Assembly (NCBI GenBank): GCA_019637395.1
Contig: JAHBVR010000015.1
Coordinates: 124,001-188,000, forward strand
DNA: 64,000 bases
Source of the DNA: Vulcanimicrobiota bacterium
Lineage (GTDB): Bacteria > Vulcanimicrobiota > Xenobia > Xenobiales > JADMJV01
Direction of reading: 5' to 3'
In this document: in pieces, positions 1,192-12,976 of the stretch
Layout of the letters: every line of letters begins with the position of its first letter
Position numbering within the stretch: position 1 is the stretch's first letter
Made by a program: the position numbers and the translations under genes
Notes under the pieces: model-generated
Database searches by the model: none
Seen by the model: only the letters and a program-made list of their open reading frames with translations
Told to the model about the DNA's origin: nothing

Positions 1192-3717
1192 TTAACACTC
1201 GGAATAGCCGCAGCTGTAGCAGGTCTGGCAGCCTTCGATGGCCTGGAAGCTGACGTTGCCGCAGCTCGGGCAGATATCCGCGCTGACCTGGGTTTTGGGA
1301 GTGTGGTGGTGGACCGGCGGGGCTTCTTCGTATTCGCCGGAGTCGGCGCTCTCGAGGTATTGCTCCTCGAGGGCCTGAGCCAGCGCGTCGGGCAATGAGC
1401 GCACGCGGTTTTTCCCAAAACCGAGCGAGCGGGGACCGCCGATACCGGAGAGCTGGTTGATGATCTCGTTGACGCGCTCCTTGGGAGTCAGGGGGGACTG
1501 GAAGCGCAGTACCAACGAGGCCATACGGCCCAGCGCTTCGGCCATCGCCTTGATATCCGATCCGCCCTTACCGATGTCGACGAAGACCTCGAAAGGCCGC
1601 CCTTCAGCGTCGTCGTTCATGGTGATATGGGCGGTGCCGGCGGGCGTATTCTTGGAAACGGTGACGCCGTAGCGTTTGTAGGGACGGGGGCGAATCTTGG
1701 GCTCGTGCTTCGGCTCCATATGGACCACCGGGGCCGGGACCACGGGGGCGGGAGCGGCCGGGGTTTCTTCCAGCTTGAGGTTGAGCACCTGCTCGTCGCG
1801 CGACTGGTCGCGGTAGATAGTGCCGCCTTTGCAGCCGAGCTTATACATCAGCTCATAAAGTTCGCGGGTCTGCTCGAGGGTGAAGTCCGACGGGCAGTTG
1901 CAGGTCTTGGAGATGGCCGAATCGACCCAGCGCTGGATGGCGGCCTGCACGCGCACGTGCTGTTCGGGCGTCAGATCCATGGCGCTGACGAAGAAATCGG
2001 GCAGTTCTTCGCCGGGGTGGGCTTCCTGCCATTCCTGCACCACCTTGACCTTCTCCTCGTGCACGCCCAGGCGGCCCTTGCGGAAGTAACTCCAGAAGAA
2101 GAACGGCTCGATACCGGTGCTGGTACCGATCATGGTGCCGACCGTGCCGGTAGGAGCCTGGGTCAAGAGAGTTACGTTGCGGATACCTTTGGTTTTGACC
2201 GCCTCGCGAACGTCCTCGGGCATGCCGCGCATAAAACCGCTCTGCAGAAACTTGTCGGCCTCGAACCGGTCGAAAGAACCTTTCTCGGCGGCAATATCGC
2301 AGGAGGCCATATAAGATTCATGGGCGATGAATTTATACAAGCCGTCCAGAAACTTAAGAGACTCATCCGAGCCGTAGCGTATGTTCAGGCGGATGAGCAT
2401 TTCCGCCAGGCCGACGGTACCCAGGCCCACGCGGCGTTCCGCTTTTTGTTGTGTTTCGTTCTGAGGAAAGAAGTAGGGAGTGGCGTCGATGACGTTATCC
2501 AGGAAGCGCGTGGCCGAACGCACTCCCCGGGACAGCTCGTCCCACTGGACCTCGCCGTTGTGGACGAAACGGGATAGATTGATGTGGCCCAAATTGCACA
2601 CCGACCATTGAGGTAAAGGTTGCTCACCGCACGGATTGGTGCAGATCAGGTCGCCCTGATCATAGTAGTGGGAATTGGAATCTTTGTTGGCGCGGTCCAC
2701 AAAGAAGAGACCGGGCTCGGCCGAAGCCCAGGCGCTGCCGATGATCTGATTCCAGACCTCGCGGGCTTTGACGGTCTTGTGCACGATGGTCTGACCACCG
2801 CGCTCCACCCATTTGGTCATGTTGCCTGACCAACCGTCTTTGTAGTTGGGGTCGTTGGTGTCCGGGAAGCGCAGCTCCCAATTGGCATCGTCTTCCACAG
2901 CCTGCATAAAATCGTCGGTGATGCCGACGCTGATGTTGGCGTTGGTGATCTTGCCCATCTCGCGCTTGGCGTTGATGAACTCGAGCACATCCGGGTGCCA
3001 GACATTTAGGATAAGCATCAGGGCGCCGCGCCGCGACCCCCCCTGCTCGATCAGTCCGGTGACGAACGAATACAATCCACCCCAACTGACCGAACCCGAA
3101 GAACGGCCGTTGACACCCTTTACGTAGGCGTAACGCGGGCGCAGAGTGGAAAGATTAATGCCCACGCCGCCGCCGCGGCTCATGATTTCGGCCATCTGCG
3201 AAAGCGTGTCGAAAATACCGTCACGGGAATCCACCGGACTGGGGATGACGTAGCAGTTGTAGAAAGTCAATTGCTGCTCGGAGCCGCAGGCGGTCCAGAT
3301 GCGCCCGCCGGGCGAAAACTTCCATTCATCCAGCAGCCAGCGGAACTCGGCTTCCCAGCGTTCGCGCAGCTCGGGTTTCTCCACCGCGGCAGCGCCGCGG
3401 GCGACGCGATCCATCATCTGCTCGACGCGGGTTTCGACCGGCTTGTCAACGTGCTCCAAAGCGCAGGTGATGATGCTCTCATCGCGCAACTGCACCGTCA
3501 CTTCGGCGCCGTTCAGTGACAGCACGGTACCGATCTCACGCTGCCCGGACTTCTGGTCCACCACCGCAACCACCGTATCGCCATCCTTGAGGGAACGCTT
3601 GGTTCCATCTTTCAGGGCATAACGATCCAGGAAGATTTTCTCACCGAGAGGGGTTAACTGATTACCGGGTTTACTCACTGTTTCTTTTTCTTTCTGTAAA
3701 AAGGCGGGGGTGGCCAA
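1192..3717 (-). CDS. nrdJ: Adenosylcobalamin-dependent (class II) ribonucleoside-diphosphate reductase
   Basis: 841 residues; converts ribonucleotides to deoxyribonucleotides using a cobalamin-generated thiyl radical, without oxygen. The three expected cysteines are visible. One redox cysteine is in FYNCYVIPSP (C155). The thiyl-radical cysteine is in NPCGE (361-365) with its glutamate. The partner redox cysteine is in VCNLGHINL (about C374). A glycine-rich loop MSRGGGVGINLS follows the first cysteine. The extreme C-terminus has a zinc-ribbon-like tail (CPSC, then CQTCYSCGYSEC), usual for this NrdJ subgroup and thought to carry the reducing cysteines. The TTG start at 3717 is supported by AAAGGAG 6 nt upstream; the next in-frame start would lose the N-terminus. 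No intein is present. The gene is transcribed alone, with its own terminator. Confidence 0.95.
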   Translation of the reverse strand: MATPAFLQKEKETVSKPGNQLTPLGEKIFLDRYALKDGTKRSLKDGDTVVAVVDQKSGQREIGTVLSLNGAEVTVQLRDESIITCALEHVDKPVETRVEQMMDRVARGAAAVEKPELRERWEAEFRWLLDEWKFSPGGRIWTACGSEQQLTFYNCYVIPSPVDSRDGIFDTLSQMAEIMSRGGGVGINLSTLRPRYAYVKGVNGRSSGSVSWGGLYSFVTGLIEQGGSRRGALMLILNVWHPDVLEFINAKREMGKITNANISVGITDDFMQAVEDDANWELRFPDTNDPNYKDGWSGNMTKWVERGGQTIVHKTVKAREVWNQIIGSAWASAEPGLFFVDRANKDSNSHYYDQGDLICTNPCGEQPLPQWSVCNLGHINLSRFVHNGEVQWDELSRGVRSATRFLDNVIDATPYFFPQNETQQKAERRVGLGTVGLAEMLIRLNIRYGSDESLKFLDGLYKFIAHESYMASCDIAAEKGSFDRFEADKFLQSGFMRGMPEDVREAVKTKGIRNVTLLTQAPTGTVGTMIGTSTGIEPFFFWSYFRKGRLGVHEEKVKVVQEWQEAHPGEELPDFFVSAMDLTPEQHVRVQAAIQRWVDSAISKTCNCPSDFTLEQTRELYELMYKLGCKGGTIYRDQSRDEQVLNLKLEETPAAPAPVVPAPVVHMEPKHEPKIRPRPYKRYGVTVSKNTPAGTAHITMNDDAEGRPFEVFVDIGKGGSDIKAMAEALGRMASLVLRFQSPLTPKERVNEIINQLSGIGGPRSLGFGKNRVRSLPDALAQALEEQYLESADSGEYEEAPPVHHHTPKTQVSADICPSCGNVSFQAIEGCQTCYSCGYSEC

Positions 3718-3804: not shown

Positions 3805-3866
3805 CCGAAAAACAAAATTCAATGTCAACATCTAGTATGCCTCCCTGGGATGTCACCACTACAGGT

Positions 3867-3907
3867 TGTGGAAAAGTGGAAAACACCTGGGGATAGCCTG
3901 TGGAAAA
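3867..3907. promoter_or_regulatory. Cluster of DnaA-box-like sites behind nrdJ
   Basis: TGTGGAAAA occurs twice (3867-3875 and 3899-3907), with a one-mismatch copy AGTGGAAAA at 3875-3883. The reverse complement TTTTCCACA fits the relaxed DnaA-box consensus TTWTNCACA. The cluster lies in the divergent region between nrdJ and the next gene. In Escherichia coli, DnaA boxes control nrdAB, so a regulatory role is plausible. Nothing else here (no dnaA or dnaN, no AT-rich unwinding element) suggests an origin. Confidence 0.4.
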
Positions 3908-3964
3908 ACATTCATAAAACTGACCAAGGAGTCAGGGGGGGAGGAATGGCGAAGGGCGGGACGG

Positions 3965-5242
3965 GTGAATCTTGAGCTCGAGCAGTTGGTCAAGGATTTG
4001 CGCGCCGAGGGCGCGCTGGATTCGGCTGGGAACTTTACTCTGGACGCGGCCAAAGCGCGTGAGAAACTGGCCCAGAGACAGCAGCGCGAAGCCGGTTTGT
4101 GGCTGGTCAAGCTGATCCAGGGAGCCCACATGTGGGAAGCCAACAGCCTGGAATTACGCCAGGAGCGCCTTTGCGCGCGGGCGGTGTTCGGGCTGGGCGG
4201 CAAGGAGCTGGACCTGCGCCCCTGGTTGGCCCGCCTGCACGACATCGAAATGCTGGCCGATCCGTTTTACGGACCGCTGGCCACCGCCTTTCAGGCCGCC
4301 CTGGCCGATGGCTGTTCGGGGATGGATATCACCTTGCCGGAAGGCCCGTTGCTGCTGGATAGCCAGGGCATCAAGGGCCACTGGAAAGGCCTGGAGCCGG
4401 TCTCCTGTCTCCCCCTGCGCTTTCTCTACGCACAAAAGAAGCCGTGGTGGAACCCTCTGCTGCACCTGCGCCCTCCCCAGCGTTCCGCGGAGAACTTCCT
4501 GGCCGCGCAACGCAAGGGTGGACTGGCTCTGCCGCGAGTGGACGTGGACCGCTTTCCCATCAGTCGCCAGGGCGCGCTGGAGAAGGTCGTCGGCGTGGAT
4601 CCGCATCCAGCCCGGATGGAAAGAGTGTTTTTGTCTTCCGACCCGGCTCGCGAGTTGATGTTCTATCCTGAATCCGGGCGGCGCCGGGCCAGTATCGAGG
4701 AGGTCAACGGCCAGGTCACCTGGCAGAATCCGGGCGTAACTTACCAGGGCTTGCGCCAGTGGCGTCACGAGCAGGGCGCTCGCCTGCCGTTGCCCACCTC
4801 TGTGCACGTGCAACCCTGGCTGGACCACCTGCAGCGCGAAGGCCTGCAGACCCCTCCCCCGCCCTCTCAAGAACAGGCTCTGGCCGTGCGTGGCGTGTTG
4901 GTCTGGAATATGGACAGCCACGTGCCGGCCACGATTCTGCCCGTCAAGTATGGGATTCAGCTGGAAGGGGTGCCCTTCACTTCGCTGCCTCCGGGGGTCA
5001 CCATGTGGTTGTCGAGTTCGCGCTGGCGCACCGACATCCACCAGAAGAAGGTGGTGCATGACGAGACCTATCGCGAGTTATGCAACTGGTGCAGCGAGCA
5101 GTTCGACTGCATGGTAAGCGATGCCGCCGACCTGTTACGCGCTTCCGAAACGGTCCGCCAGATGCTGGCTCCGCTGCGGCTGGCCCTGGGCAACTCCCGA
5201 GCGGGCGCGGCCCTGCGCACCCTGCCCTTTCCACGGCGCTGA
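3965..5242 (+). CDS. Orphan protein with degenerate GHKL-like N-terminal domain (paralogue A)
   Basis: 425 residues from GTG 3965. An upstream in-frame TTG at 3866 is rejected because the DnaA-like boxes would then lie inside the gene. I do not recognise a named family. The first ~140 residues match the N-termini of the genes at 9008 and 55652. They share an 'L..L...G.L...G.FTLD...A..KL' opening (here LRAEGALDSAGNFTLDAAKA), then a hydrophobic helix followed by a short strand (NSLELR). Next comes a segment 'LATAFQAALADG' followed by a strand and 'PEG'. In an intact GHKL ATPase these correspond in order to the N-box helix, the first strand and the G-loop region, but the E, N and D of the ATP site are absent. 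The remainder is proline- and tryptophan-rich with no motif. The gene is a single unit, ending against a tandem repeat array. Confidence 0.6.
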   Translation: MNLELEQLVKDLRAEGALDSAGNFTLDAAKAREKLAQRQQREAGLWLVKLIQGAHMWEANSLELRQERLCARAVFGLGGKELDLRPWLARLHDIEMLADPFYGPLATAFQAALADGCSGMDITLPEGPLLLDSQGIKGHWKGLEPVSCLPLRFLYAQKKPWWNPLLHLRPPQRSAENFLAAQRKGGLALPRVDVDRFPISRQGALEKVVGVDPHPARMERVFLSSDPARELMFYPESGRRRASIEEVNGQVTWQNPGVTYQGLRQWRHEQGARLPLPTSVHVQPWLDHLQREGLQTPPPPSQEQALAVRGVLVWNMDSHVPATILPVKYGIQLEGVPFTSLPPGVTMWLSSSRWRTDIHQKKVVHDETYRELCNWCSEQFDCMVSDAADLLRASETVRQMLAPLRLALGNSRAGAALRTLPFPRR

Positions 5243-5592
5243 AAGCGCGGAGAACTGGTGGCGGAGGCCCGATTGGGCAGCCTTTCCGGGGGGCGCGGAG
5301 AGCTGGTGGCGGAACCTCCGCCACGGCGGCTCCGCGGAGGCCGATTGGGCAGCCTTTCCGGGAGCGCGGAGAGCTGATGGCGGAGCCTCCGCCAGCGCGG
5401 CTCCGCGGAGGCCGGATTGGGCAGCCTTTCCGGGGGGCGCGGAGAGCTGGTGGCGGAACCTCCGCCACGGCGGCTCCGCGGAGGCCCGATTGGGCAGCCT
5501 TTCCGGGAGCGTGGAGAGCTGATGGCGGAACCTCCGCCACGGCGGCTCCGCGGAGGCCGATTGGGCAGCCTTTCCGGGGGGCGCGGAGGGCG
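5243..5592. repeat. 72-bp tandem repeat array between convergent genes
   Basis: The whole gap between two convergent stop codons is repeats. The core GATTGGGCAGCCTTTCCGG begins at 5271, 5343, 5415, 5488 and 5559 (periods 72, 72, 73, 71), preceded by a shortened unit at 5243-5270. Copies 1, 3 and 5 continue CCGGGGGGCGCGG, while copies 2 and 4 continue CCGGGAGCG and have GATGG instead of GGTGG, so the array has a ~144-bp two-unit period. Each full unit holds nested inverted repeats (GGCGGAACCTCCGCC and the palindrome CTCCGCGGAG), so transcripts would fold strongly. Long open frames run across it on both strands but translate into a repetitive RG/PP-rich string and are not convincing genes. Confidence 0.9.
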
Positions 5593-6930
5593 CTAAGGCT
5601 GGGGCTCGGCGGGAGGGGGCGGGTCCGGCTGGGGAAGCGGATCTTCTTGAATTTTGCGCTTTTTGCTCCAGGGGTACTTGCGCTTGGGGCGGGTGACCAC
5701 GCCCGGGATCTCACCATCCTTGATCTGCTGCTTGTTGCTCTTCTTTTCTTGCTTGACGGCTTTGGCTTGGCCGGGAGCGTCGACGAAGCAGCAGCAGTCC
5801 CAGTTGGACGAGCATTTGCAGGCGTCGCAGCAGTCAGGATCGCAGCAGTCGCAAATCTCGCAGCACTCCAGCCCTTCGCAGGCCCCGCACTCGCAAGAGT
5901 TGCAGACCGAACAGGCGTCGCAGGCGGTCAGGTCGCAGGCGTTGCAGTCACACAGATGGCATCCGTCGCAGCAGCCTCCACAATCGCAGCCCTCACAGCC
6001 TCCACAGTCGCAGCCGTCACAGGCCACGGCCGCCTGGGGTTGCAGGGAGGCCGCCGCCAGGCCGGCACCGATCCAGCAGGCCCGGCCGGAAAAGCGCGCC
6101 TCGTCAGAACGGAACTCACGCAGAGTCAGGCTGCGCAGCCGGTTCACCTGCTCTTCCAGCAAGGGGCGGCGCTGGCCTAAAGGCAGATGGTTGAGGGCCC
6201 GGCGCGCGTGGTGCAGGGCGTGCAGCAACTGCACTCCCAGTTCCTCGTCGGCCAGCGGAAATTTCACCAGAGCGTTAAAGGCTCCGTGCCGGCGGTCTTT
6301 GGCCTGGTCGCTCCAGGCATCATAGAGATAGATCCACAGGCCCAGGGCCCGTCCCAGTTCTTCTAGATGAGGGCGCAGCCAGGTTTGTTCCGTATAATCC
6401 GCCAGAAAACCAAAAAGCGCGGCCAACATGGTCTGGGTGGGCACGGCCAGGTCGGGCAGCGAGCCGGCCTCTTGCTCGACAGCCCGCTGCCAGGCGCCCA
6501 ACCCCTCGATGGCGTCGCGCGGGAACCGCGCTTCATCCAGAATGGGCGCGGCCTTGCGCCAGCTCTTTTGCAGCGGCAGAAAAGCCCAGCGCACCCAGGG
6601 GCGATCCCCATCATGGAGATCGTCTTCGACTTTGGCGCCGGCCAGGGCCAGAGTCAGAGCCGATACCAGCTTACGCGTGCGCAACGGCATCTGCAGCACC
6701 GGCACCTGGCGGAAGAAGACGGCCGTGCAGGCCTTGCGTTCAATATGCTCAGATCTCTCTAAGGCGGCCAGCGTAATCAGAAAAAAAGTGGTGTCATAGT
6801 TGGTGAGCAAGGAGGCAAATTTGCCGCCGAAGGCGTCGAGGCTATGGCACAGTCCGCAGAAATGACTCTGGTAGAGTCGCTTCTGATCCGCGTCAAAGCG
6901 GTCTTTGGGCGGACGCAGGGAGCCGAACAC
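5593..6930 (-). CDS. DUF5685-family protein with a 30-cysteine C-terminal domain
   Basis: 445 residues from GTG 6930. An in-frame ATG exists 20 codons upstream (6990), but the family characteristically begins 'MFGxLRP', matched by GTG-FGSLRP. The first ~290 residues carry the DUF5685 pattern: CGLCHSLDAFGGKFASLLTN (about 25-45), 'YDTTFFL', and a helical block ending GLWIYLYDAWSDQAKDR before HGAFNAL. After a short hydrophobic stretch comes a segment (DNA 5780-6035) with 30 cysteines in ~80 residues, mostly CxxC and CC pairs with Asp, Glu and Gly. A basic then proline-rich tail follows. The biochemical role of DUF5685 is unknown to me; the Cys domain looks like a metal-binding or disulfide-rich module. 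The gene stands alone, bounded by the repeat array and a hairpin. Confidence 0.75.
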   Translation of the reverse strand: MFGSLRPPKDRFDADQKRLYQSHFCGLCHSLDAFGGKFASLLTNYDTTFFLITLAALERSEHIERKACTAVFFRQVPVLQMPLRTRKLVSALTLALAGAKVEDDLHDGDRPWVRWAFLPLQKSWRKAAPILDEARFPRDAIEGLGAWQRAVEQEAGSLPDLAVPTQTMLAALFGFLADYTEQTWLRPHLEELGRALGLWIYLYDAWSDQAKDRRHGAFNALVKFPLADEELGVQLLHALHHARRALNHLPLGQRRPLLEEQVNRLRSLTLREFRSDEARFSGRACWIGAGLAAASLQPQAAVACDGCDCGGCEGCDCGGCCDGCHLCDCNACDLTACDACSVCNSCECGACEGLECCEICDCCDPDCCDACKCSSNWDCCCFVDAPGQAKAVKQEKKSNKQQIKDGEIPGVVTRPKRKYPWSKKRKIQEDPLPQPDPPPPAEPQP

Positions 6931-7002
6931 GGGGGCTGCCTTCGCCGAGCCCGGGGAGGAGTCCCTGGCCCGGTTAGGAAAACCGCCCAAGCAGGGGGGT
7001 CC

Positions 7003-7058: not shown

Positions 7059-7496
7059 ATGGCAAATCCGCGTATCTCGATGAAGACTTCAAAAGGCGAA
7101 ATGATCATCGAATTGTTTCAAGACGCCGCTCCCAACACCGTGAAGAACTTTCTCGATCTGACCAACAAGGGTTATTACAACGGTCTGACCTTCCACCGCG
7201 TCATCCCCAACTTTATGATCCAGGGGGGCTGCCCTCACGGCACCGGTACCGGTGGTCCGGGCTACAAGATCAACTGCGAAATCAACCCAAACAAGCACCT
7301 GCGCGGCTCTCTCTCGATGGCTCACGCCGGTCCCAACACGGGCGGCAGCCAATTCTTCATCTGTCACTCGCCCCAGTCCCACCTCGACGGCGTCCACACC
7401 GTCTTCGGCCAAGTGATCGAAGGCATCGAAGTGGTCGACAAGGTGCAAAAAGACGACAAGATGGAAGAAGTTCGCCAGCTCAGCGTAGCCGGCTAG
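7059..7496 (+). CDS. Cyclophilin-type peptidyl-prolyl cis-trans isomerase
   Basis: 145 residues, a minimal single-domain cyclophilin that catalyses proline isomerisation during protein folding. The start is ATG 7059, with GGAG 6 nt upstream; the in-frame TTG at 7047 is worse placed. Family signatures are clear: [13 protein letters not shown] (catalytic Arg and the substrate loop), then GSQFFICHS and [12 protein letters not shown]. There is no signal peptide, so it is cytoplasmic. The usual tryptophan of eukaryotic cyclophilins is replaced in the [10 protein letters not shown] segment, as in most bacterial ones. It is followed immediately by a terminator. Confidence 0.95.
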
Positions 7497-7506
7497 CTCG
7501 ATTGAA

Positions 7507-7535
7507 AAGGGGCCGGAAGACCGGCCCCTTTTTTG
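7507..7535 (+). terminator. Intrinsic terminator after the cyclophilin gene
   Basis: A 10-bp stem AAGGGGCCGG / CCGGCCCCTT (7507-7516 with 7521-7530) around AAGA, followed by a T-run. It ends only 3 nt before the ATG of the GHKL ATPase gene. Confidence 0.9.
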
Positions 7536-7538
7536 TTT

Positions 7539-9011
7539 ATGGGAAAAAAGAAAGCGAAGGTCAAAGCCGCCGGAAACGCGTTGGACATGCTGGTCCGCCA
7601 GTTCGCCCAGCCGCTGGCGTGTTTGCGCGAGCTGGTGCAGAATTCCATCGACGCCGGCACCAATCAGGTGGAAGTCACGCTGGCCCAGGAGCGCGAGGGC
7701 ATCCGCCTGTCGGTGAGCGACACCGGCGAGGGCATGACCGAAAACATCATCGAGACTCAGTTGACTCGCCTGTTCGCTTCTTCCAAAGAAGGCGATCTGA
7801 CCAAAGTCGGCAAGTTCGGCATCGGCTTCGTATCCGTCTTTGCCCTGGTGCCCCTGGCGGTGGTGGTGGACACCGGCCGCCAGGGTGAGGCCTGGCGCGT
7901 GCTCTTCAAACCTGACCGCTCTTTTGAGCTGCTCAAGTTACCTCATGGAGTGGAGGGCACCACCGTCCATCTCTACCTGGATGGTGAGCGCTTCGACCTC
8001 CCCGATTTGCGCGCCAAGGTCCACCAAACCCTGGCCTTCTGGTGCCGCCACTGCCGGGTGGAGATTTTTGTCGATGGCCAGTCCATCCGTTCGCCTTTTG
8101 AATTGACTGACTCGGTGCAGGCCCACTATGAAGAAGCGGGCACCCGCCTGGTGCTGGCTCTGAGCCGGCAGGCCGAATGTTTCTACGGATATTACAATCA
8201 GGGTCTGACGTTGCTGGAAGGCATGCAGTCCCCCTTGCCTCATCTGACCTTCAAAATCGATTCGCGTTACTTCGAGCACACGCTGACCCGCGACAATATC
8301 ATTCAAAACGAGGACTACGCCAAAGGGATGGCGTTGCTTGAGCGCGTGCTGAAAACCCACTATCCGCCGAAACTCTATGAGCATTTAAGAAACGGTGGGG
8401 AAGATTGGGAATTGCTGAGCATTCTCGGGCTAAAGGGGGTCAGTTGCGACCAGGAACCCCTCTTTCCCGACCACCAGGGCCAACGGTATTCCCTGGCCCA
8501 GTTACGCAAAGCTCAGGTTTGCCATCAGGACGAGCCCGATGAGTTGAGCCGACTGATCCACGAACCGGCTCAGAGTCGACTGGTGCTGCGGCTCAGCCAG
8601 GCGGCCGCCGCCTGGCTGAGCCAGCGCGACCTTCCCGTGCCGGCCACCAGGCAACGCTGGCGCTTTTCCCGGCCGGACGACTCGCTCGACCCCTTGCTGG
8701 TTTCGTGCCAACAATTGGGAAAAGCGCTGGGCGTGCGGCGCCTGAAGGCGGTGAGCTGGATCAGCCCGGCTCCCGGTTCTTTCCTGTGGCCGGCCTCGAA
8801 GGTGGGACTGGTTGGACATTCCGACCACGGGGATTTACTGCTCCTGGACGTGAACCACCCGACCGCGGCCAACCTGAAACGCCTGCAGGATTGGAATCGG
8901 CCGCTGGCGGCGCAAATTTTGCTGCAGCACCTCATCTTGCAGCTACCGGAAAAAGACCGTGAGGCACGCGCCGAGAAGCTGGCCATCACCATGCTGAGGC
9001 ACTTGAAGTGA
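7539..9011 (+). CDS. Hsp90/MutL-like GHKL ATPase
   Basis: 490 residues from ATG 7539. The ATP-binding Bergerat fold is intact: N-box LRELVQNSIDAG (E31, N35), G1 box DTGEGM (D61), the glycine lid KFGIGFVSVF (93-101), and GTTVHLYL (about 140-147) for the last strand. Residues ~230-265 (YYNQGLTLLEG, then HTLTRDNIIQNEDY) resemble the middle domain of Hsp90-like proteins, where a conserved Arg contacts ATP. The C-terminal 200 residues are unassigned, and there is no MutL or topoisomerase domain. No Shine-Dalgarno is visible because the upstream DNA is the terminator, so initiation may be leaderless or unusual. The gene overlaps the next by 4 nt (GTGA), so the ATPase and the 1322-residue protein are coupled. 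It probably acts as a chaperone-like or remodelling ATPase. Confidence 0.8.
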   Translation: MGKKKAKVKAAGNALDMLVRQFAQPLACLRELVQNSIDAGTNQVEVTLAQEREGIRLSVSDTGEGMTENIIETQLTRLFASSKEGDLTKVGKFGIGFVSVFALVPLAVVVDTGRQGEAWRVLFKPDRSFELLKLPHGVEGTTVHLYLDGERFDLPDLRAKVHQTLAFWCRHCRVEIFVDGQSIRSPFELTDSVQAHYEEAGTRLVLALSRQAECFYGYYNQGLTLLEGMQSPLPHLTFKIDSRYFEHTLTRDNIIQNEDYAKGMALLERVLKTHYPPKLYEHLRNGGEDWELLSILGLKGVSCDQEPLFPDHQGQRYSLAQLRKAQVCHQDEPDELSRLIHEPAQSRLVLRLSQAAAAWLSQRDLPVPATRQRWRFSRPDDSLDPLLVSCQQLGKALGVRRLKAVSWISPAPGSFLWPASKVGLVGHSDHGDLLLLDVNHPTAANLKRLQDWNRPLAAQILLQHLILQLPEKDREARAEKLAITMLRHLK

Positions 9012-12000
9012 GCTTTCTCGAGCGGCTGCGCGGCCAGGGCCAACTGCATCGCGAGGGCGAGTTCACCCTGGACGTGGAGCAGGCCAGGACCAAGCTGTCG
9101 CGCTTTCAGTTCCGAGAGGACCAGGATTTTCTGTATCACCTGGTGGGTGGTCTCTTTCGTTTAGGCGCGGAAGAGATCGAAGTAGATTGGCAGGCCAACC
9201 GGCTGAGCGTACGGATGCTGGCTCTTCCTCTAGAACCGGATTTCCTGCCGGCGCTGCCGGGAGCTTTGCTGGAGGAAAACTCACCGCAGCGGCGTCTGGC
9301 CGCGGCCGCCCAATCCTTGCTGGCACACAAGCTGATCCGCTTCGATTGGATCGGCTCAGGCAAAAATCAACTATATGACTATCTGAGCGGCAAACAACAG
9401 AACTGGGAGCGGGTTTGCTTGCGGGAGATTCAACTGGAAGGCCTTTCCTCCGGCCTGGTCGAGCGAGCTCTCGCCGAGCTGAGAAAAAAAGCCGCTTATT
9501 GCCGCAAGCCGCTGCTCGTGAGAGGAAATGCCCTGCCGATCACGTTCCCCACCGGCCAACTGGGCGGACTGCCGGCCACCTGCCAATGCCGCCCCGGCCA
9601 GCTCAGCCAGTTGGAGCTGGTAGTGGACGAAATGGTTTGTCCGCCCAAGACCGTGCCCGCTCCGTTTGCCTGGCACGGTGTTTGCTATGGCGACTTCCAT
9701 CTCGATGTCTCGCTAACGAACGCGGTCGAGGACGAACTCTATGCGCGCGTGGCCAACGCCATCGAGAGCAGCTTTACCGATTGCATCGAAAGGGTCCGCG
9801 ACCGCGAGGTCATTGGTAAGCTTCTGAGCGGCCCGGCTTACCCCTGGTTGCAACCGCTACTGCCGCGCCTGCGCAAGCGGGTGCTATTTACCGACCAGCG
9901 CGCTGAAGACTGGTCGCTCGACGAATTAACTCCACCGGTCTATTTCAGCACCGAGCAGGCACCGATCGATCTACCCGAGAGGATTTTGCTGGAGACCTCG
10001 CCGGTAATGCTCGCCTGCCTGCAAGCGCAGTTTGGCGCCGAGTGCCGACGCGCGGACGAGGTGGTGTTGCGCCAGTTACGCCGCCAGCGCAACCAGTTCC
10101 AGTGGAGCCGGCGAGCCGAGACCGGACTGAACCTGCCGGCGCGCAACTGGTTGGTCCAGAAAGTCTTCGAGCAGAGCGCCGGGCAGTGGTCGCTGGGCAT
10201 TCCCGACGACTGGGCCGAACCCGGAGGCAGCCTCACCCTGTTGCACCAGGGCCGTCTTCTCTGCCACCGCCAACTCGCTCACCCCGAAGTGGCTTTTACT
10301 TTAATTTGCGAGGTTGGCGAAGCTCAAATCAATGAGTTGTGGGACGACATCACGGAAGAGGCCTGGGAAGAATTGGAACCGCGCTGGCTGCACAGCCTGG
10401 AGGAGCTGATTCGCGAAATGGCCGGAGAAGGTGTGCCCAGAGGGGCCCTGCGGACCTATCTGGTAAAGCATTTGAGCCACGCCCGGCGCCCACAGGACAG
10501 CTATTTCGCCAAGACCATGCTCTTCCAGGATTGGCACGGTCGGTTTTATTCGCTATTTCAATTGCTCTCGCTGGGGCCTGGTCAAAGCTTGTGCCTGGTG
10601 ACGGAAGAGCAAGCCCCGCTGGAGGATTTTATGCCGGTGGGCGTTTTCATCCGAGCCGGTCATTGGGAGACACGGCTTTTCAAGAGCATCAGCTCGCTCA
10701 AGCTTTTGGAACTTGACTATCTGTTGAGAGACCTGAACCTGTCCCGCCGCCCGTCTTTCCTGGAACGCCGGAACCTGTCTCCAACCTTTGGCCAGGCCCG
10801 CGTGACTTTCTGCGTGCGCGGAGTCGAATTGGAAACGGTCAAGGTCGATTCAATACTCGGCTTTGAAGCCTGGGTGCGGAACGACGAGCTGACCTTCCAG
10901 ATTCGCCTGGAAAACGAGAGGCTGGGAGCCAGTCGCTTTCGCCTGGCCATGAACGCCAAAGCCAAACGCTTCCTGGATCAACTGGTGGCGGAGGCGCGCG
11001 AACTCTCCCCTCCCCTGCCGCTGCAGGCCGAGTGGCTGGCCTGGGCTCGGGAAGCCACGCTGCGCCAGGTGGCTGCGCCCGAACTGGCCTGCTGGCCCAC
11101 CCTGTGGAATGGAATGGTGAGCTTACAAGATTTGCGCCGGGCCGAGCGGGTCAACTGGACCAGCGGGCCTGGTTCTGCGCAATTTCCCCGAGAGTTATTG
11201 CTGATCAACCTGTCCGATGGCCAGCGCGCCTACCTGCAACAGCAGTGCCAAAACGAGTGGGTCGGCCAGGATCTTTGGTTCGCTGAGCAGGAACGGTTGC
11301 GGCTCTTTCTCGAGAAACCGATGTGGAGTCCGAATTTTCAGGCGTTGGGCACCTACCCTGGAGTCTGGCTGGTGGCTGACAAAGACCCCGGCAAGGTCAT
11401 TCACCTGCTTCGCGGACGCTGGTTGCGCGAGGAAGAGGGATTGATACCGCCCGGACTGCGCGCTACCGTGGAGTGCGCGGGTTTCGAGGATGCCCCCGAT
11501 CTCTCGGAGTTGCTGGAACGAATCCGAAGGCATCTGGCCGATTGGTTGGCAGTGGCTCGTCCCCGCAACCGCGGAATGCTCTACCACTGGCGAGAGTGGG
11601 CGCCGCTCAGCCAGGAGATCAACGATTGCCTGCGCCGCCAGCCCTGGTTTCAGACTAACCAGGGCCTTCTCAGTTGGGAAGATATTCTGCAGAAAGGGGA
11701 GATCTACCGGGTGGTGGCAATCTATCCGGATCTCCCTCGAGATCGGCTCTTCTTAGCCGAAAGCGGGACTCCGCCGGGGTTGCTGGATTCGCTGCTGGCC
11801 CAGCACGGCAAAGGCCATTCCGTGCCCCAGACCGCCAGGCTACTGCAAGAAGAAAAACGGCTGGCCGAACGACGCCAGCGTCTGGCGGATCAGCTCCGCC
11901 GGCTCAACCACCTGAAGTTCAAAATCAAGGTCGAGTGGGGCGATGTGGGCCTGTCGGGTAAGTCCACCAAGGATTGCTGGCTGCTCTTGCCGGAACGGGC

Positions 12001-12976
12001 CGTACTGCTCCACAATGTCCCGTCGGGCCTGGTGGGCGCCCTGGAGTGCGACCAGGAATATCGACTGCGCCGCATCGGGTCTCAAGAGTACGCGGAATTG
12101 AATCAGGGAGTGCGGCGCCGCTTTTACCAGGCGCTGCAGCCGCTGCTGCTGCAACGAATTCAAGCCGGCCGTCTGAATGCAGCGGAACTCGCCACCTTTT
12201 GCGAAGTTCTCATGCTGGGTATGGAAGATATGGCTCAGGTGCGCTGGATCCCTTGTGCCGACGGCAGCCTGACCAGCCTGGCCCAGCTCAAACTCGATAG
12301 CGAAGAGCGTGATGAACTCGGCTATTGGCCCAAGACCTACGCCTTCAGTTCGGGGGGAGCCCGCATCACGCCGATCTTGTCCTCCCCGTTGATGCTGGAG
12401 GTGGTTGGACGTTACTGTGGGCGCCGGCCCCAGCCCCTGCCCAAACCGTTACTGCATCAGGACGTGAAACTCAAAATGCCCAGTTTCCGCGGTTTCGGCC
12501 AGGTGCTGCGCAGCCTGGGCCATGCCGCCGACAGGCTACGCGAACAAGTGGTGAATGTGGAAACGCGCCGGGCCACCCTCTTTGAGACACTCTTCAAGGA
12601 GACGCCGCCGGGCGATGGCAAAGCCTTGTTGACGGCGCTCCGGCGCCAGGCGGCTCAGTTGACTCAAGGCGCGGCTCGCCGAGAGCTTTTGAAAGTTCTG
12701 GACAAAGCCAGAATCGGTGACTGCCGCGATTTGTGGGATTTTACACCGGAACTGGTGTTGTCGAGCTCCTGGTTGCGAGCGCACCTGGGTAGCCAGGAGC
12801 CGCCGGTGGAGGTGACTTTGAGCTTGCTGCTCTGCCTGGTGAGCGCCATCAACGCCCGCAGCCAACCGTTCACCGACAAAATGGAAGAGAAATTCCTGGG
12901 AAGCCTGACCGAAGAGCTAGTAGGGTCGTGGGCCACCAGCGGGAACGCGGGATCGAGTGAAGTCACGAGGCCTTAG
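9008..12976 (+). CDS. Very large orphan protein with degenerate GHKL-like N-terminus (paralogue B)
   Basis: 1322 residues from GTG 9008, translationally coupled to the GHKL ATPase (GTGA). I recognise no named family. Residues 1-110 match the genes at 3965 and 55652: 'GQLHREGEFTLDVEQAR.KL', then a helix LVGGLFRLGA and a strand EEIEVDW. This lines up with the ATPase's 'ELVQNSIDAG..QVEV' but has lost E, N and D. 'LAAAAQSLLAHKLIRFDWIG' then falls where the lid of the active enzyme lies. The rest is Leu-, Arg- and Trp-rich, apparently soluble and all-domain, with no transmembrane helix, signal peptide or known catalytic motif. A charged helical stretch (about 940-975, 'LLQEEKRLAERRQRLADQL') may be a coiled coil. 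It overlaps the following exporter gene by 20 nt. I infer a partner or client platform for the ATPase. Confidence 0.6.
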   Translation: MSFLERLRGQGQLHREGEFTLDVEQARTKLSRFQFREDQDFLYHLVGGLFRLGAEEIEVDWQANRLSVRMLALPLEPDFLPALPGALLEENSPQRRLAAAAQSLLAHKLIRFDWIGSGKNQLYDYLSGKQQNWERVCLREIQLEGLSSGLVERALAELRKKAAYCRKPLLVRGNALPITFPTGQLGGLPATCQCRPGQLSQLELVVDEMVCPPKTVPAPFAWHGVCYGDFHLDVSLTNAVEDELYARVANAIESSFTDCIERVRDREVIGKLLSGPAYPWLQPLLPRLRKRVLFTDQRAEDWSLDELTPPVYFSTEQAPIDLPERILLETSPVMLACLQAQFGAECRRADEVVLRQLRRQRNQFQWSRRAETGLNLPARNWLVQKVFEQSAGQWSLGIPDDWAEPGGSLTLLHQGRLLCHRQLAHPEVAFTLICEVGEAQINELWDDITEEAWEELEPRWLHSLEELIREMAGEGVPRGALRTYLVKHLSHARRPQDSYFAKTMLFQDWHGRFYSLFQLLSLGPGQSLCLVTEEQAPLEDFMPVGVFIRAGHWETRLFKSISSLKLLELDYLLRDLNLSRRPSFLERRNLSPTFGQARVTFCVRGVELETVKVDSILGFEAWVRNDELTFQIRLENERLGASRFRLAMNAKAKRFLDQLVAEARELSPPLPLQAEWLAWAREATLRQVAAPELACWPTLWNGMVSLQDLRRAERVNWTSGPGSAQFPRELLLINLSDGQRAYLQQQCQNEWVGQDLWFAEQERLRLFLEKPMWSPNFQALGTYPGVWLVADKDPGKVIHLLRGRWLREEEGLIPPGLRATVECAGFEDAPDLSELLERIRRHLADWLAVARPRNRGMLYHWREWAPLSQEINDCLRRQPWFQTNQGLLSWEDILQKGEIYRVVAIYPDLPRDRLFLAESGTPPGLLDSLLAQHGKGHSVPQTARLLQEEKRLAERRQRLADQLRRLNHLKFKIKVEWGDVGLSGKSTKDCWLLLPERAVLLHNVPSGLVGALECDQEYRLRRIGSQEYAELNQGVRRRFYQALQPLLLQRIQAGRLNAAELATFCEVLMLGMEDMAQVRWIPCADGSLTSLAQLKLDSEERDELGYWPKTYAFSSGGARITPILSSPLMLEVVGRYCGRRPQPLPKPLLHQDVKLKMPSFRGFGQVLRSLGHAADRLREQVVNVETRRATLFETLFKETPPGDGKALLTALRRQAAQLTQGAARRELLKVLDKARIGDCRDLWDFTPELVLSSSWLRAHLGSQEPPVEVTLSLLLCLVSAINARSQPFTDKMEEKFLGSLTEELVGSWATSGNAGSSEVTRP

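Follow-up and report, generated by a model that had tools for sequence, protein, structure and literature searches.

The gene at positions 5593-6930 of the window (the whole 64,000-nucleotide stretch of bacterial DNA analysed here) encodes a DUF5685 protein, in which a core that very probably has the class I isoprenoid-synthase fold, of the trans-prenyl diphosphate synthase-like type, is joined to a cysteine-rich tail kept under strong purifying selection. Our favoured reading, to which we give a probability of roughly one in three, is that the core prenylates the thiols of this Cys module; a tail that binds metal comes close to it in probability. A family of unknown function, present in at least three phyla here, thus gains a fold, a candidate class of ligand and a partner. 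Protein S-prenylation is known mainly from eukaryotes; if the core does act on cysteines, bacteria would own an unrelated S-prenylation enzyme, and clostridia would possess a J-domain chaperone system with a lipid anchor.

The gene and its parts are arranged in the window as follows.

5593-6930, minus strand: whole gene (DUF5685 core, linker, Cys-rich tail and basic/Pro-rich end); 445 amino acids, GTG start, TAG stop
6091-6930, minus strand: DUF5685 core, residues 1-280, with the proposed isoprenoid-synthase fold (Pfam match and fold evidence)
6847-6858, minus strand: C25-x-x-C28 (CGLC), unchanged in all 17 of the intact members compared
6727-6729, minus strand: C68, invariant in 17 of 17
6610-6624, minus strand: first Asp-rich motif, D103-D-x-x-D107 (D103 in 17 of 17, D104 in 11 of 17, D107 in 16 of 17)
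6274-6321, minus strand: second Asp-rich motif, D204-A-x-x-D208-x3-D212, to N219 (each in 17 of 17)
6022-6078, minus strand: linker, residues 285-303, conserved in congeners
5782-6021, minus strand: Cys-rich tail, residues 304-383, 30 Cys in 80 residues (Cys count and congener comparison)
5593-5781, minus strand: basic and then Pro-rich C-terminal end, including the stop codon, under weaker constraint than the Cys tail

The initial annotation had named this gene a DUF5685 protein, and a Pfam search of the window protein bears it out (PF18937, 112.1 bits against a curated cut-off of 26.7, E = 4e-32). The match covers residues 22-279 in a numbering that starts from the TTG at 6990, and the domain ends at about residue 260-280. 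Other family members start with MFG at the corresponding point, in agreement with a GTG start at 6930. Positions 6931-6990, in frame from the TTG, show protein-level similarity in three congeners, so that either the protein extends further at its N-terminus or the leader DNA is conserved. DUF5685 was found once in the 7.66-Mb genome assembly and in nine of 149 genomes of the phylum, at ten places in all; a search of the window's genome for a second copy of the tail gave nothing convincing (best E = 0.2).

Neighbours of the gene are a cyclophilin (7059-7496) and an Hsp90-like ATPase protein (7533-9011), and two long proteins without a Pfam match to E 0.01 are encoded at 3866-5242 and 9008-12976 (the latter of 1322 amino acids), in an order kept in the genus. 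The gene at 1192-3717 on the minus strand is, by eye, presumably a ribonucleotide reductase. Gene order is conserved among members of the genus but not beyond them and is therefore of little help in assigning function; a functional tie to the cyclophilin and the Hsp90-like protein, conserved only inside the genus, was set aside. A 72-bp tandem repeat (5261-5588; 4.5 copies, 90% matches) ends beside the DUF5685 stop.

The residues C25, C28, C68, D103, E152, G197, D204, A205, D208, D212 and N219 are invariant in the 17 intact members, in all of which Ala takes the place of the second Asp in the second motif, so that this motif reads DAxxDxxxD instead of DDxxD. This Asp pattern suggested an isoprenoid synthase, and tests of the fold were made. 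When 17 DUF5685 cores were aligned by hhalign with 14 polyprenyl synthases of relatives, a score of 38.1 (E = 1.6e-4) was obtained; the alignment spans 135 columns and pairs each of the two Asp-rich motifs with its polyprenyl synthase counterpart. The score of the compressed form, 29.6, was reached in none of 200 column shuffles, in none of 100 block shuffles each at 1, 10 and 20 columns, and in three of 100 at 30 columns, and the reversed template scored 18.5. Subsets of cores taken by phylum gave much the same register at lower scores. Likewise, prenyl diphosphate synthases made up 20 of the 22 rows listed (E up to 10) in an unguided hmmsearch of the 17-core profile against all PDB sequences; the matches are remote, with a best E of 0.025 and no single one significant at 0.001, and the 20 rows correspond to about six different enzymes in the same register, 14 of them appearing to be variants of one Thermotoga enzyme. 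With a 7-sequence profile, four of seven PDB rows were prenyl diphosphate synthases.

Structural comparison pointed towards the all-alpha isoprenoid-synthase fold on models of low confidence. Two AlphaFold models were built from an input of only four close sequences (pLDDT 43 and 44; pTM 0.41 and 0.48). For the first, MoeN5 filled the seven top rows of VIA re-alignment (Z 5.0-5.7), and Foldseek returned receptors and other noise only. For the second, 47 of 50 entries in VIA-align were isoprenoid synthases or prenyltransferases of that fold, the best again being MoeN5 (Z 7.3, 157 aligned residues, rmsd 4.7), and ranks 1-8 in Foldseek were of the isoprenoid-synthase fold (best probability 0.95 at E 0.13). 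Squalene/phytoene synthase (SQS_PSY) was considered as closest kin, its motifs being alike by eye, and was rejected because hhalign gave no significant similarity (E = 0.13; in a further comparison 20 of 200 shuffles scored equally well). An NCBIfam search gave nothing of use. An assignment of fold or function to DUF5685/PF18937 was not found in the open-licence literature searched, where one paper gives the name DUF5685 in a list and PF18937 has no mention.

The tail matches its first description closely. Where about 30 Cys in 80 residues had been proposed, residues 304-383 hold exactly 30, versus four within the other 365 residues of the protein; the CxxC, CC and CxC spacings were counted at 14, six and six, respectively, and the basic and then proline-rich end is present after the Cys domain. 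The tail carries 17 acidic residues and one Lys, with a net charge of -16. It is found in four further species of the genus (L004, L005, L006 and L007): 29 of the 30 Cys are retained in each of the first three, and in L007 all 23 aligned Cys are retained, the other seven falling in gaps. Relative to L004-L006, pN/pS is 0.07-0.13 for the tail and 0.13-0.19 for the core, with synonymous sites saturated or nearly so; relative to L007, the values are 0.29 and 0.47. The tail is thus under strong purifying selection. Distant members of the phylum (L002, L003, L008, L009 and L010) also possess a Cys tail, with few alignable residues besides Cys.

The initial annotation had allowed that the Cys positions might not be conserved in close homologues, or that the tail might be an assembly artefact of a low-complexity region; neither is the case here. 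One explanation sees in the tail a short Cys/Asp/Gly repeat that has expanded without meaning, or an artefact of assembly or reading frame. A 24-bp repeat (2.1 copies) does lie inside the tail at 5972-6022, and its number of units differs among congeners; the remainder of the tail was not reported as repetitive. This explanation is hardly credible against the low pN/pS, the retention of 29 of 30 Cys, the recurrence of the tail in the separate assemblies of four other genomes and the occurrence of a Cys tail in every fused member. It is refuted for the tail as a whole, although the number of 24-bp repeats may itself be neutral: as the unit number differs among congeners, the length of the tail drifts while the thiols are held.

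To place the protein in its family, 20 different DUF5685 proteins (18 intact and two degenerate) were collected; those from outside the window's phylum form a small sample of 10 proteins from plasmid and phage collections. Before counting, L011-L013 were dropped as repeats of L005, L004 and L006, respectively. The 17-member residue counts leave out the degenerate L018 and L019, and L005, which is near the window sequence, was left out of the 17-row alignment, the tree and the tail table; in alignment A7, L012 and L013 stand in for L004 and L006. Further tblastn searches added no family members of use, and a scan of viral contigs with three queries gave no match.

It had been asked at the outset whether the Cys domain is fused to DUF5685 generally or only here. 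In this sample, it is fused in 14 of 14 members from the window's phylum (ten) and the actinomycetes (Nonomuraea, two Nocardia and Tsukamurella), and in none of the four members of clostridial type (one each in Pusillibacter and Subdoligranulum, two on faecal contigs catalogued as phage). In all four of the latter, the gene following the tail-less DUF5685 encodes a J-domain protein with a C-terminal Cys string, comprising five to nine Cys within the last 20-24 residues; these J tails, unlike the fused ones, have almost no net charge and consist largely of hydrophobic residues, and some of the J proteins show weak TPR-like matches. Full-length relatives of the J proteins occurred in the plasmid and phage collections only next to DUF5685, and the other 16 of 18 plasmid matches cover about the J domain alone. 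In the window's genome, none of three J-domain proteins read through, out of five J-domain places, has a Cys end. Neither of the two degenerate paralogues has the CxxC, an intact second motif or a Cys tail, and a pattern search of the 5.7-7.2 kb covered at these loci showed no J-domain gene. A tree of 19 cores separates the fused from the tail-less members by a branch with 99/99 support and puts the degenerate pair with the latter; as the tree is unrooted, both fusion and fission are possible. Because the core and the Cys module occur together, whether fused or split between DUF5685 and the J-domain protein of the next gene, they probably work together and are functionally coupled.

Some of these loci deserve separate mention. 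The degenerate paralogues (L018:2764-3705 and L019:3483-4367) lie upstream of a membrane protein and of a gene that we take, by eye, to be glmS, in faecal contigs that are filed as phage and look bacterial. In Pusillibacter (L015:7613-9535), an RseC-family gene and cdaA/CdaR-family genes directly precede the DUF5685-J pair, which belongs to a stretch of house-keeping genes; the record bears the label plasmid.

A feasible model for this coupling comes from the peptide prenyltransferases. ComQ, described as a homologue of FPP/GGPP synthases, prenylates a Trp of the ComX peptide (PMC5331326), which is encoded in the gene adjacent to comQ (PMC4008528). From what is described of this fold and its motifs, binding of prenyl diphosphate through Mg2+ is expected (PMC7839719, PMC5331326). 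The window protein would unite an enzyme core and a thiol module in one chain, in which the core would bind a prenyl diphosphate through Mg2+ by its two Asp-rich motifs and prenylate the module at its thiols, whether in cis or in trans. Protein farnesyltransferase is described as using a Zn-activated Cys thiolate (PMC7839719), and it is tempting to guess that the invariant C25, C28 and C68 hold a metal by which the acceptor thiol is activated. Prenylation at many sites would turn the Cys string into a membrane anchor, either for the protein itself or, in clostridia, for a chaperone-type J protein.

As to the acceptor, Trp is probably recognised, in the account given by a 2026 review, by a Gln that shortly precedes the second motif (PMC13290415); the corresponding position is Tyr in 13 and His in four of the 17 DUF5685 cores, and the acceptor should therefore differ from Trp. 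Across the family, the density of Cys is kept and its spacing is not, as expected of a multi-site acceptor. On the other hand, that review presents every characterised trans-IDS-like peptide prenyltransferase as acting on Trp (PMC13290415), the second motif has Ala for its second Asp in all 17 cores, and none of the 17 gives a Pfam match to PF00348 (trans-polyprenyl synthases). The AlphaFold models are weak, no PDB match is significant at 0.001, and the sample beyond the phylum comprises 10 proteins. Moreover, the fused tails are as a rule acidic and hydrophilic, and in this they resemble metallothioneins more than lipidated strings. The fuller proposal, that the DUF5685 proteins are the first trans-IDS-like enzymes to prenylate Cys rather than Trp and that they multiply modify their own tail or the string of a partner J protein, is on balance rather doubtful. 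Within the literature searched, no report was found of bacterial Cys-string J proteins or of bacterial Cys prenylation.

The composition of the tail also lends itself to a different explanation, only a little less probable than prenyl transfer, in which the tail is a metallothionein-like module for Zn, Cu or an Fe-S centre; the core would then bind an isoprenoid or other ligand in a metal-requiring reaction or switch, and the thiols would never be lipidated. Metallothioneins are characterised by a high Cys content with CxC, CxxC and CC spacing, and the tail resembles them in both respects, its 30 Cys standing among 17 acidic residues and a single Lys. All 13 fused tails described are acidic (net charge -2 to -19) and as a rule hydrophilic, a property that metal binding fits better. 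Three members from other genera of the phylum (L003, L008 and L010) bear two TFIIB-type zinc ribbons C-terminal to the Cys tail. By contrast with metallothioneins, the tail is no free small protein but is fused to an isoprenoid-synthase-like core, and it belongs to no matched family: neither Pfam (to E 10) nor the PDB sequences yielded a match, although such searches are weak on Cys-rich sequence. Furthermore, the number of Cys ranges from six to 36 among the 13 fused tails described and their spacing is not kept, and some clostridial J tails, with five to nine Cys of which several stand amid Leu and Met, seem ill suited to binding metal.

A third explanation, clearly less probable than these two, regards the core as a non-catalytic relative of the isoprenoid synthases and the tail as a thiol/disulfide or redox sensor, the J-domain link reflecting protein folding under oxidative stress. 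The absence of the second Asp of the second motif throughout the 17 cores would suit a non-catalytic core, and the J-domain partners, together with the cyclophilin and Hsp90-like ATPase found nearby within the genus only, would suit a role in folding. However, neither the Asp motifs nor the three core Cys show decay, being invariant instead, the paralogues that have decayed lost the Asp motif and the CxxC together, and the chaperone-like neighbours are not kept beyond the genus. The initial annotation had offered metal storage, a disulfide cage or a modified peptide-like domain; this proposal is supported in part, the modified domain being slightly favoured on account of the fold of the core and the split arrangement with the J protein.

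The DUF5685 core can be set beside several known systems. It resembles ComQ, PalQ and the P domain of ChrP, as these trans-IDS-like peptide prenyltransferases are described, in being prenyl-diphosphate-synthase-like with the first Asp motif conserved and the second altered, and it resembles ComQ in being paired with an acceptor encoded alongside, which in DUF5685 is a candidate acceptor only (PMC5331326, PMC13290415). It differs from the ComQ type in that this candidate acceptor is a Cys string, fused or carried by a J-domain protein, rather than a Trp, and in having Tyr/His in place of Gln as well as three invariant core Cys. MoeN5 and the trans-prenyl diphosphate synthases provide the closest solved folds and profiles, with both Asp-rich motifs in register; DUF5685 departs from MoeN5 and PF00348 in its DAxxDxxxD, its N-terminal CxxC and its Cys tail, and in the failure of all 17 cores to match PF00348. 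Finally, the Cys domain of DNAJC5 (CSP-alpha) is described as palmitoylated for membrane binding (PMC10903463). The four clostridial partners combine a J domain and a Cys string as this cysteine string protein does, whereas they are bacterial and their string forms the very end of the chain; in the window protein itself, Pfam shows no J domain. If the reading of Cys prenylation is true, the DUF5685 system would be to bacteria what the lipidated cysteine string protein is to animals.
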